Notes under the pieces: generated by a model
Seen by the model: the letters and a program-made list of their open reading frames with translations, nothing else
The model's database searches: none
What the model was told of the DNA's origin: nothing
Part shown: positions 46,824-53,141 of the stretch, in pieces
How positions within the stretch are numbered: the first letter of the stretch is position 1
Layout of the letters: each line of letters begins with the position of its first letter
Program-made: the position numbers and the translations under genes
Assembly: GCF_021065005.1 (NCBI RefSeq)
Contig: NZ_CP069247.1
Coordinates: 372,001 to 436,000, forward strand
Reading direction: 5' to 3'
DNA from: Candidatus Gromoviella agglomerans
GTDB taxonomy: Bacteria; Pseudomonadota; Alphaproteobacteria; CAJXXZ01; G021065005
DNA length: 64,000 nt

Positions 46824-49800
46824 ATGTCTGGATATCTGCGTTATCCTTCGATTTATAGAGATGATTTATATTTTACTTTAAGTGGAAATATTTGGCGTAA
46901 ATCTGGTGAGTACACATGCTGCTTGGTGACTGAATTTGGTTATTGTAGACATATTTGCTCTAATGATAAATTTGTCGCATTTACTAGTAATGTTTCTGGT
47001 GGAAGTGATGTTTATTTATATGACCTTAATTCTCAAGAAGTGAAGAGATTGACTTATAAAAATTTTGTCTCAAGTGTTGTGTGTTTCTATCATGATTACG
47101 TGATATTTGCTTCGATGCACGAATCTCCTTTTAGAATAAATAAACTGTTTTATATTAATGTGTACGATCAGACAGATATTGGGTGCTTGCCTTTTGGATA
47201 TGGGAATTTTGTCTCTCTCCCTTCTGCTTCTGAGCGATTTTTGGTCTTATCACGTAATGGATATGGATTTACTCAGTGGAAGGGTTATAGAGGTGGTTGC
47301 GTAGGAGAGATATTAGCAAAAAAGATTGAAAATGAATTTCTTGTAAATGAGAAACTTTCTGTTAATTTGAAAAATGTTGTTGATAATTGTGAAAATGATT
47401 CTTTCTGCTTGCTTGAAGATAAATCACGTGATTTCTTCAATTATTCTCTTGGTAACCCTGAAAAGGGAGTGCTTATTGATCAAAGTGTTTTTTTTATATC
47501 AGAAAAAGATGGGACTGATTGTGTGAATTTTGATGCTATGCCTGGTGAGACTTATTGCGTGCAGCAGAGAAATATATTTTCAGTAAATCTTGTAGATAAT
47601 AAAGTGATTCAGCATACTTTTCATGATGATTTTTCAGTCACTGAATTTTCTATATGTCCTATATCAAAAAATCTCGTTTATAGTTGTGGAGGAGAGCTGT
47701 TTTTACTGAATTCAGCTTCTTCTGAAATAAATTTAGTGAATTTAAATTGCTCAAATAATAATTTTTCTTTACCTAAAATGGTTGATGCATCAAAGTATTT
47801 GCATGATTTCTCTGTTAAAGATGATCATGAGATTGTATCCATTATATCGAGAGGACGTCTCTTCTTGATGCACCCATGGTTATCTGGAGCAACTCAGGTG
47901 CATTCTACAATAAATTACAGATTTAAAATTGCGAAAATATTTGGAAATTATGTTATAGCTGCTATAGATGATGGGTCTAAAGACATTATTGCGATATATA
48001 AAATTATTGACCCTTCCGCTCCATGTATGATTTTTGATCATGATTTTGGTAGAATTGTTGATATTAATCCTTCGAGAAATGGTTGCTATTTAGCTATTGC
48101 TAATCATAGAAATGAACTTTTTTTGATGAAAGTTCTCCATGAAGTCAGTCAAAAGCAGGATGAAAATGATAAGAAGAATGATGCGGAGCAATCTGCTGAA
48201 TTGATTCATATTTTTGATAAAATAGATGAAAATGGACTCAAAATAGGAGAGGTTTTGAATATTGATAAGTCTATTGGGTGGATGTCTGATTCTAGTTGGA
48301 GCTTTAATAATGAATGGATTGCATATACTTATCATGTGAATGATTCTATTTCAGATATAAAATTCTTCTCGATAAAAGAAAGAAATTGTATTACGGTAGT
48401 GCAAAATGGATTTGTTAATTTTGCTCCTCGTTTTTGTCCTTCAGGAAAGTATATGTACTTTTGTTCTCAGAGTATTTTTAAGCCAGAATGGGGAGAGGTG
48501 AAATTTTCAATGTTTTTTCAAAATTCTTCAAAACCTTATTTGTTGACTCTGAGAGATAGTGTTCGATCTCCATTTGTTCTTGGAGAAGCATCTGTTGATG
48601 AAGAAAGTAATTTCGCAATCAATATGAATGGTATTTCAAATAGAATTATTCCATTTCCAGTTGATGCTGGAGATTTTGTTGATATTTTGCCTACTAATGG
48701 AAAAGTCATGTGGGTAACAAAACACGACTCTGAAAATTCTGAATTTGTAATTCAATCATACGATTTCTCTTCTTTGAAAGAAGAAGAAATTGTAACTGGT
48801 GTAAATCACGTAGAGTTGTCTCAAAATTGTAAGTGGTTGATCTATAGCTCAAGTAATAACTCAAAATTGCGTTTGATGAAAGCTGGAGATAGGCCAGATT
48901 CTCAAGAATCCTATAAAAATCATGGATGGATTGATCTTGCCAAAATAAATCTTAAGGTAGATCTGAAAAAAGAGAGAGAGTTCATATTTAATGAGGTTGT
49001 TAGATTGCAAAATGATTTCTTTTGGTCTGAGAATGTTGCTCGTAATTTAAATAAAATATCAGTCAAATACAAACAAGTTATGCATAAGCTTTCTAATAGA
49101 AATGACCTAAATGAGATCATTAAAGAATTTCATGGTGATTTGATGTGCTCTCATGCTTATGTTATCTCTCCTGGAGATGCAGACTTCTCTAAAAGAATGC
49201 ACATCTCTCTATGTGCAGAATTTACATTTGATAAAATTGAGGGTGATTTTTTTAAAATCCTTCAAGAAGCTGGCATATGTGAAGAATTTGCTTACAAGAT
49301 TAAGAAAATATATTCCGGAGATTCTATGAATATTTCACCATTGTTATATTCTGATATTCCTCTCAATGTTGGAGATTTTCTCCTATCTATAAATGGAATA
49401 AAACTTACGCGAGATATCTCTCCAGATCATGTTTTGGAGAGAAGTTCTCCTACCGTGAATGTGGTTGCTCTAACAAAAAATGGAGTTAAACAACTTGTGA
49501 TTAATGGCTCATCATCAGGTAATAGATTCCATATATATAGAGAGTGGGTGAATAATAACAGAAAATTTGTGTCTGATTTCACTAATGGTAAAGTCGGTTA
49601 CATACATATTCCTGATATGTCTTCAAGAGGGTATGCTGAATTTTGTATGTCATTTGCTCGTGAAAGACTCAAAGATGGTATAGTAATTGATGTGAGATTT
49701 AATGAAGGAGGGAATATTTCTACTCTGATTCTTGAGAAGTTGTCGCAGATTAGTTTAGGATATGACTTCAATAGATGGAGTTCAAATGTCATTAACTATC

Positions 49801-50165
49801 CTTTTGAATCAAGAAGAGGGGAAATTGTCTTTTTGTGCAATGAACAAACAGGATCAGATGGCGATATGTTTGTCATGGCTATTAAAGAAATGAAATTGGG
49901 TAAGGTATTTGGGAAAAGAACTTGGGGTGGTGTAGTTGGTATAGATACAAAATTCTCACTTATAGATGGAGGAATTACGTCTCAGCCAGAGCATGCATTT
50001 AAAATGTACTCTAGTAAAAAGATTGAAAATGTTGGTGTTGAGCCTCATGAATTTGTTGATATATCTCCAATTAATTATGCTCGTGAATTTGATCCACAGA
50101 TTGAAGCTGCTTGTAAGGAAATTATGAAAATATTATCATTTTCCACAAAATTTGATTCTTTTTGA
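46824..50165 (+). CDS. Tricorn-type protease
   Basis: 1113 residues with a GGGAG Shine-Dalgarno. The N-terminal two thirds has beta-propeller blades (FVAFTSNVSGGSDVYLYDLN and many repeats). It continues with a helical linker, the histidine region GDLMCSHAYVISPGD (about 770), a PDZ-like part (SDIPLNVGDFLLSINGIKL), and the S41-like protease core GKVGYIHIPDM, IVIDVRFNEGG, and the nucleophile TGSDGD near residue 1010. Tricorn degrades peptides released by larger proteases. No signal peptide is seen, so it is cytoplasmic. It follows the AmpG-like gene in a probable two-gene operon. Confidence 0.9.
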   Translation: MSGYLRYPSIYRDDLYFTLSGNIWRKSGEYTCCLVTEFGYCRHICSNDKFVAFTSNVSGGSDVYLYDLNSQEVKRLTYKNFVSSVVCFYHDYVIFASMHESPFRINKLFYINVYDQTDIGCLPFGYGNFVSLPSASERFLVLSRNGYGFTQWKGYRGGCVGEILAKKIENEFLVNEKLSVNLKNVVDNCENDSFCLLEDKSRDFFNYSLGNPEKGVLIDQSVFFISEKDGTDCVNFDAMPGETYCVQQRNIFSVNLVDNKVIQHTFHDDFSVTEFSICPISKNLVYSCGGELFLLNSASSEINLVNLNCSNNNFSLPKMVDASKYLHDFSVKDDHEIVSIISRGRLFLMHPWLSGATQVHSTINYRFKIAKIFGNYVIAAIDDGSKDIIAIYKIIDPSAPCMIFDHDFGRIVDINPSRNGCYLAIANHRNELFLMKVLHEVSQKQDENDKKNDAEQSAELIHIFDKIDENGLKIGEVLNIDKSIGWMSDSSWSFNNEWIAYTYHVNDSISDIKFFSIKERNCITVVQNGFVNFAPRFCPSGKYMYFCSQSIFKPEWGEVKFSMFFQNSSKPYLLTLRDSVRSPFVLGEASVDEESNFAINMNGISNRIIPFPVDAGDFVDILPTNGKVMWVTKHDSENSEFVIQSYDFSSLKEEEIVTGVNHVELSQNCKWLIYSSSNNSKLRLMKAGDRPDSQESYKNHGWIDLAKINLKVDLKKEREFIFNEVVRLQNDFFWSENVARNLNKISVKYKQVMHKLSNRNDLNEIIKEFHGDLMCSHAYVISPGDADFSKRMHISLCAEFTFDKIEGDFFKILQEAGICEEFAYKIKKIYSGDSMNISPLLYSDIPLNVGDFLLSINGIKLTRDISPDHVLERSSPTVNVVALTKNGVKQLVINGSSSGNRFHIYREWVNNNRKFVSDFTNGKVGYIHIPDMSSRGYAEFCMSFARERLKDGIVIDVRFNEGGNISTLILEKLSQISLGYDFNRWSSNVINYPFESRRGEIVFLCNEQTGSDGDMFVMAIKEMKLGKVFGKRTWGGVVGIDTKFSLIDGGITSQPEHAFKMYSSKKIENVGVEPHEFVDISPINYAREFDPQIEAACKEIMKILSFSTKFDSF

Positions 50166-51702: not shown

Positions 51703-51841
51703 ATTTTGAGTATTATTATGTAAAGGTGTATTAATTGATTCTCTTGTTTTTTGATGAATCTGCAGTCTAAAAATTGTCTATTGTGTATTGTAAAAGTTAT
51801 TTGAAATTTATAGAATCAGATTGTTGATATTTTTTATTGTT

Positions 51842-52351
51842 GTGGCTATTAATAATTATGAGCTAGTCATTATACTTGAGCAAGGACTTTCTCCTGCGCA
51901 GGTTAATGGATATGTTGATGCCTTGAAAGGTTTTGTAAATGATATTGGAGCTTCTGTTCATGGTGTTGATATGTGTGGTCTGCGTGGGTTGGCCTACGAA
52001 ATTGCTAAGAATCGTCGTGGATATTATATAGTTTTTAGGCTTGTATTGAGTGTTGATAGTTTGAATAATCTTAAGGATAAGTTAAAGTTTGATAAGAGTA
52101 TCGTTCGCTATATGGTGGTGAGAGTCAATGAATTTAAGATGAATCCATTACTGTTGTCTCGTGGGGCAGATGAAGCTGTTGTCAATGAAGTTGGAATTGA
52201 TTACAAAAATATAGATTTTATTAGGAAATATATGAACAGAGTTTCTAAGATTTTACCTAGGACTATTACTAAGTTATCAATGAAGCAGCAGAATATGGTT
52301 GCACAGGCAATTTCTAGAGCTCGTTTTTTGGCTCTGTTGGCTTATATGTGA
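51842..52351 (+). CDS. rpsF-rpsR: Fused ribosomal proteins S6 and S18
   Basis: One continuous frame of 169 residues. It starts with S6 (INNYELVIILEQGLSPAQV, RRGYYIVFRLVLS, IVRYMVVRVNEF) and continues without a stop through a linker NPLLLSRGADEAVVNEV into S18 (IDYKNIDFIRKYMNRVSKILPR, then KQQNMVAQAISRARFLALL). In other bacteria these are two genes that overlap or lie close together. The start is taken as GTG at 51842, but a TTG at 51821 is also open. An in-frame ATG at 52139 could allow S18 to be made separately. The S18 part lacks the usual N-terminal basic tail. Confidence 0.88.
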   Translation: MAINNYELVIILEQGLSPAQVNGYVDALKGFVNDIGASVHGVDMCGLRGLAYEIAKNRRGYYIVFRLVLSVDSLNNLKDKLKFDKSIVRYMVVRVNEFKMNPLLLSRGADEAVVNEVGIDYKNIDFIRKYMNRVSKILPRTITKLSMKQQNMVAQAISRARFLALLAYM

Positions 52352-52499: not shown

Positions 52500-53141
52500 T
52501 TATATGAATATCATAGGTTTTCTATCTTTGAATAGCAATTTTAACACAAATTTTAGCATTCTGCCTGCGTTACAAGCGATTACACTCCCTGCATTGTTCC
52601 ATATTGCGATGTCTTGAAATGAATTGCCTATATATGTAAATTTATTGTCCTTTCTATGCACAAAATTTGTCTGAAGATAGCTTAAAATTAGTTTGTATTT
52701 GTTTTGAGATACTGCATTGATTTTATCATTACTAGCAATGAAACTAGTGAATAATCCTTTAAGATCAAGATCTTTTGATATGATCGAGTTGATATCGTTG
52801 ACGATTTGAGAGCAAATTACCTCATTTGCCCCGCTTGCTAGAAATATCTCGCATTTTTGAGTTCGTAATTGAATTATGTATCTCATTACTGATTCATTAA
52901 TTATTTTGCAATATGTGTTTTTGTTTGAGCAAATATTTCTACATTCTTCTTTTATTATATCGAACATATCAGTTTTTGTGATATTTGACATAAAAGCCTT
53001 GGCTTTTGCAGGGCGAAATGTACAGTAAAGAAAGTAAATGCGAGCTTTGTGGAAAAAATCAAGTGATCTCATAATGTATGATCTGCTGCTTATTCTTAGC
53101 AAAGTTCCATCTAAATCTACAAATATTTTCATAAAGAACAT
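52500..53141 (-). CDS. HAD-superfamily phosphatase
   Basis: 213 residues. HAD motif I IFVDLDGTL is at the N-terminus, motif II ..IFLASGAN, and motifs III-IV KYKLILSYL then FTYIGNSFQDIAIWNNAGSVIACNA. The pattern is like the HAD domains found with UbiA-type prenyltransferases, but no partner is nearby. The substrate is unknown. The start may be the ATG at 53132. Confidence 0.75.
   Translation of the reverse strand: MFFMKIFVDLDGTLLRISSRSYIMRSLDFFHKARIYFLYCTFRPAKAKAFMSNITKTDMFDIIKEECRNICSNKNTYCKIINESVMRYIIQLRTQKCEIFLASGANEVICSQIVNDINSIISKDLDLKGLFTSFIASNDKINAVSQNKYKLILSYLQTNFVHRKDNKFTYIGNSFQDIAIWNNAGSVIACNAGRMLKFVLKLLFKDRKPMIFI

Follow-up and report, generated by a model that had tools for sequence, protein, structure and literature searches.

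A single reading frame encodes ribosomal proteins S6 and S18 in Candidatus Gromoviella agglomerans and related protist endosymbionts

Few sets of proteins are as conserved as the ribosomal proteins, and S6 and S18 were separate products in nearly all other bacteria that we tested. To our knowledge, it is very rare for two bacterial ribosomal proteins to be naturally fused. An open frame in Candidatus Gromoviella agglomerans raises a question: does this organism encode S6 and S18 as one polypeptide? The sequence-only reading of the window (i.e., the whole 64,000-nucleotide stretch of DNA that was analyzed) had proposed that it does. The organism is a Holosporaceae symbiont of Paramecium with a 590-kbp genome and a GC content of 32% (PMC11909080). 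Its assembly (G000 below) is one contig of 589,967 bp; the window has a GC content of 31%. The features of the locus are these:

51703–51841, forward strand: gap following the upstream gene, 139 bp; no match to the RpsF_leader RNA (RF02893)
51842–52351, forward strand: fused rpsF-rpsR gene encoding an S6-S18 protein of 169 aa; ends in TGA, with GTG as the preferred start
51854–52123, forward strand: S6 domain (Pfam PF01250), residues 5–94
52124–52192, forward strand: junction of about 23 residues, of which residues 108–117 are modeled with low confidence
52139–52141, forward strand: candidate internal start (in-frame ATG) that is present but not conserved in relatives
52193–52339, forward strand: S18 domain (Pfam PF01084), residues 118–166; begins just before the IDYK motif

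Reading of the ORF showed that the frame is open throughout and that its sole stop is the terminal TGA. The stop-to-stop frame comprises 185 codons and opens further upstream, with a TTG at 51821; the GTG at 51842 fits the S6 alignment and is the probable start. The translated frame was scored against the curated cut-offs of Pfam and NCBIfam. The Ribosomal_S6 profile matched over its full length (positions 1–90 of 90; 74.5 bits, cut-off 27, E = 7.7e-21), and the S6 equivalog TIGR00166 scored 58.4 bits (cut-off 42.9). Downstream, Ribosomal_S18 matched over positions 4–52 of 52 (68.2 bits, cut-off 21, E = 6.7e-19), and the S18 equivalog TIGR00165 scored 57.4 bits (cut-off 38.75) over positions 17–67 of 70. 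The latter match begins at position 17, so what the S18 part lacks is the N-terminal tail alone. Unlike stand-alone bS6, the S6 part has no free C-terminus: the frame runs on into S18 without a stop. Where separate genes would have the C-terminal tail of S6, a stop codon, an intergenic gap and the basic S18 N-terminal tail, the fusion has the junction. With both domains above curated cut-offs in one stop-free frame, the proposal that the two proteins are encoded as one is confirmed.

Six-frame searches of the entire 589,967-bp genome returned exactly one S6 match and one S18 match, both inside the frame at 51842–52351, and no second rpsR or rpsF elsewhere. A separate rpsR, which the sequence-only reading had named as evidence against itself, is therefore not part of this genome, and its proposal stands on that point. 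As each protein is encoded once, the cell has no source of S6 or S18 other than the fusion, provided that it is expressed. The gene rplI, which usually lies near rpsR, does not adjoin the fusion gene; an ORF that by eye resembles a HAD phosphatase (DLDGTLL motif; 52500–53141, reverse strand) is convergent with it.

Does the arrangement recur in relatives? Eight genomes of the same order (G000–G007) were examined. In G000, G002 (627,924 bp), G003 and G004 (615,988 bp), S18 is present only as the C-terminal part of the S6 frame, and each genome has one S18. The same layout is found in G001 as a 167-aa frame; its S18 part, at 14 bits, has diverged beyond recognition by Pfam but is still plain in the alignment (GRIL...SKAIKRARYIGVLPY). 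The S18 half of that frame (L013, 1267–1770, reverse strand) is strongly diverged and has a four-residue insertion in its core; the function of S18 in G001 may be changing. The fusions of G001–G004 are 19–28% identical to the window protein, and their neighbors differ, including, by eye from the ORFs, alanine racemase, prolyl-tRNA synthetase and a gyrase/topoisomerase B subunit. From this low identity and the different neighbors, it follows that the fusion is ancient rather than a product of misassembly. Despite such overall divergence, the S18 core (GKIL...AIKRAR...) is kept across the fusions of the order.

Relatives with two separate genes at the locus would have spoken against the fusion. 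No relative of the order was found to have them; G001–G004 are all fused, and G005–G007 are fragmentary (69–83% complete). In G007 (69% complete), an S6 frame of 146 aa was found and S18 was not; that frame (L014, 1447–1887, reverse strand) has an N-terminal extension and includes undetermined bases. Neither protein was seen in G005 or G006, an absence that is weak evidence given how fragmentary these genomes are. At the level of sequence, the fusion of S6 and S18 is thus confirmed as real and conserved in five related protist-endosymbiont genomes.

We then asked how the locus looks beyond the order. A scan of named genomes yielded 80 alphaproteobacterial loci (L015–L094), all of which had two genes. 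These pairs resemble the fusion in that S6 precedes S18, often in the same frame: the rpsF and rpsR frames were in the same phase in 32 of the 80, often with one stop codon between them. They differ from it in having a stop codon between the genes in every case and a basic S18 tail, which is of the RRRKxC type in 77 loci by pattern and in the remaining three by inspection. Scanning the named genomes with the window protein alone found nothing, and doing so with an alignment of the five fusions found only separate genes. A profile of the five fusions was then run against 385 genomes of the class; stop-free, full-length matches were limited to G000–G004 and one further genome, G100, in a screen that is not fully exhaustive, since a long linker could split one fusion into two matches. 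The ten long S18 frames of the class that were checked (up to 270 aa) are not fusions: in every case, S6 lay in a different open frame. A recheck of eight genomes with single matches (G179, G228, G311, G490, G493, G533, G564 and G639) found no fused frame. The sample of the phylum (299 genomes) contained no further fusion. A description of an S6-S18 fusion was not found in the literature searched, whose coverage was partial; an earlier annotation is possible.

The G100 genome, which is 98% complete and belongs to another order of the class, encodes a stop-free S6-S18 fusion of 190 aa (L105) and no other S18. Like the window fusion, it joins S6 and then S18 in one frame and is without the S18 tail; unlike it, it has an acidic linker of greater length (43 residues, with a net charge of −6), and its origin is probably independent. 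A member of the same family as G100, G209, has two genes, and its separate S18 gene (L110, 1432–1671) already is without the basic N-terminal tail. The same is true of G036, from another lineage, whose S18 gene (L106, 2516–2704) encodes a tailless protein of 62 aa. In a tree of the S6+S18 core, which has long branches, G100 and G209 grouped together (98/98 support). A single clade of all six fusions was mildly rejected (AU p = 0.037), and the grouping of the order's five fusions was not (AU p = 0.63). Given the unfused sister G209 and the result for the single clade, the fusion probably arose twice, once in the ancestor of these endosymbionts and once in the G100 lineage.

The sequence-only reading had also noted the loss of the basic N-terminal tail of S18. 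This observation was correct, and it extends to all six fusions. Since the unfused S18 proteins of G209 and G036 are tailless as well, the data suggest that the tail was lost before the genes were joined, and these separate genes are possible intermediates toward fusion.

We compared both halves with the E. coli proteins. In other bacteria, S6 pairs with S18 first, and the heterodimer then docks on the platform of S15 and 16S rRNA; in E. coli, Y23/K24 of S18 and R44/Y48/P49/R85 of S6 are contact positions of the heterodimer, and K60, R61 and R63 of S18 contact rRNA (PMC4647458). In the window protein, three of the four S6 positions are kept (R48, Y52 and R89, equivalent to R44, Y48 and R85), and that of P49 is E53. 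The IDYK motif, which includes Y23/K24, is retained in the window protein and not kept in G001–G003. The rRNA-contact positions correspond to S158, R159 and R161, i.e., K60 is replaced by serine; the R63 position does not vary among the order's five fusions. The AlphaFold model of the fusion (pLDDT 85.7, pTM 0.79) is confident in both domains and weak at the junction alone, with pLDDT below 50 only at residues 108–117. Its S6 half matches S6 chains in the PDB (best E = 5.4e-10; TM-scores by target of 0.84–0.94 and rmsd of about 1–2 Å for the best matches). Among the matches listed, no PDB chain matched both halves.

The reading that we favor, and consider very probably right, is that one S6-S18 protein serves as the cell's only S6 and S18 and does the work of the S6:S18 heterodimer. 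Some features do not sit easily with it: the S18 part has diverged, strongly so in G001, and in the window protein it has lost K60. Moreover, S6 is dispensable in some bacteria, so that a conserved, joined S6 part is not in itself proof that both halves work.

What else could the frame represent? A sequencing or assembly error might have erased a stop between two genes, and a single in-frame stop does separate them in many alphaproteobacteria. However, four separate relatives and one distant genome have the same stop-free fusion, all without the S18 N-terminal tail and the intergenic gap; an error near 52139, which the sequence-only reading had raised against itself, is ruled out by the relatives, and this explanation is effectively excluded. 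It is hardly more credible that the S18 part is a decaying remnant whose function has been lost or replaced. The divergence of S18 in G001 and the missing tail in all fusions would fit decay, but the frame has been kept open, the S18 core is conserved across proteins only 19–28% identical overall, and the S18 domain in the window still scores 68 bits.

Two further explanations accept the frame and have free S18 made from it. Internal initiation could yield S18 in addition to the fusion, for example from the ATG at 52139. This codon, as the sequence-only reading had stated, exists in frame; it would give an S18 of 70 aa, a normal length, and the anti-Shine-Dalgarno sequence of the genome is intact. 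The free S18 that had been proposed from it fares less well: no start codon is conserved at the equivalent position in G001–G004, the bases before the ATG (gaatttaag) have no clear Shine-Dalgarno core, and the product would still be without the basic tail. The lack of conservation makes a separate S18 unlikely, and the ATG is probably unused. A polyprotein cut into S6 and S18 after translation is very unlikely. The linker at residues 108–117, modeled with low confidence, is probably flexible and could be cut, yet no linker motif is conserved across the six fusions, among which linker length and charge vary. We know of no protease that cuts S6-S18.

If, as we favor, the fusion does the work of the heterodimer, its product would stay uncleaved and sit in the 30S subunit. 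The covalent link would fix the ratio of the two halves at 1:1 and bring them together within one chain, with the S6 domain docking on the S18 domain as usual and the short, flexible linker of about 23 residues replacing the S6 tail and the basic S18 tail. The starting state would have been that of other alphaproteobacteria, with rpsF and rpsR adjacent and often in the same frame. From there, we infer a route in which the basic tail of S18 was lost first, after which loss of the stop codon and trimming of the gap joined the genes; the joining would have taken place in the common ancestor of these protist endosymbionts and, probably as an independent event, in the G100 lineage. A broader proposal has, in our estimate, an even chance of being right: that reduced or fast-evolving alphaproteobacteria joined the two 30S proteins covalently on at least two occasions, in each instance with the S18 N-terminal tail already lost. 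S6 and S18 would then enter assembly as one ready-made unit, which would save an assembly step and alter the surface of the platform near the 16S 3' end and the mRNA exit.

The S6:S18 heterodimer of the E. coli 30S subunit (rpsF/rpsR; PMC4647458) is a close known counterpart, with the same proteins, IDYK in S18, the R44/Y48/R85 equivalents in S6 and the same expected place in the platform. The window fusion differs from it in being one covalent chain, in the missing S18 tail, in the serine at the K60 equivalent and in that no RpsF_leader was found. In animal mitoribosomes, a [2Fe-2S] cluster bridges bS18m and bS6m (PMC11791143). Both systems link this pair of proteins by more than ordinary contacts, there by a metal cluster between two chains and in the fusion by a peptide bond. 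The fusion offers a natural test of what keeps S6 and S18 separate, what the S18 N-terminal tail does and whether 30S assembly is limited by formation of the heterodimer. On the practical side, pipelines in which S6 and S18 are counted as separate markers may rate such genomes incomplete or misname the gene.

Finally, we scrutinized the regulatory and translational context. The RpsF_leader search that found no match before the fusion gene finds that of E. coli at 110 bits; the ordinary alphaproteobacteria that were tested do not have the leader either, so its absence is uninformative with regard to the fusion. G000 and G002–G004 retain an intact anti-Shine-Dalgarno end of 16S rRNA, and the window shows a mild enrichment of Shine-Dalgarno cores (10 of 48 ORFs vs. 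4.4 in shuffled sequence). Thus, loss of the S18 tail did not accompany loss of the Shine-Dalgarno system. In E. coli, RimI acetylates the free N-terminus of S18. No RimI-like acetyltransferase was found in any fused genome or in G209, which fits the missing free S18 N-terminus, but genome reduction also predicts such an absence. Upstream of the fusion gene, a 1113-aa ORF (46824–50165, forward strand) resembles, by eye, a tricorn-type protease, with a beta-propeller-like N-terminus, a PDZ-like part and a C-terminal protease-like part; its retention is unusual for a 590-kb genome.
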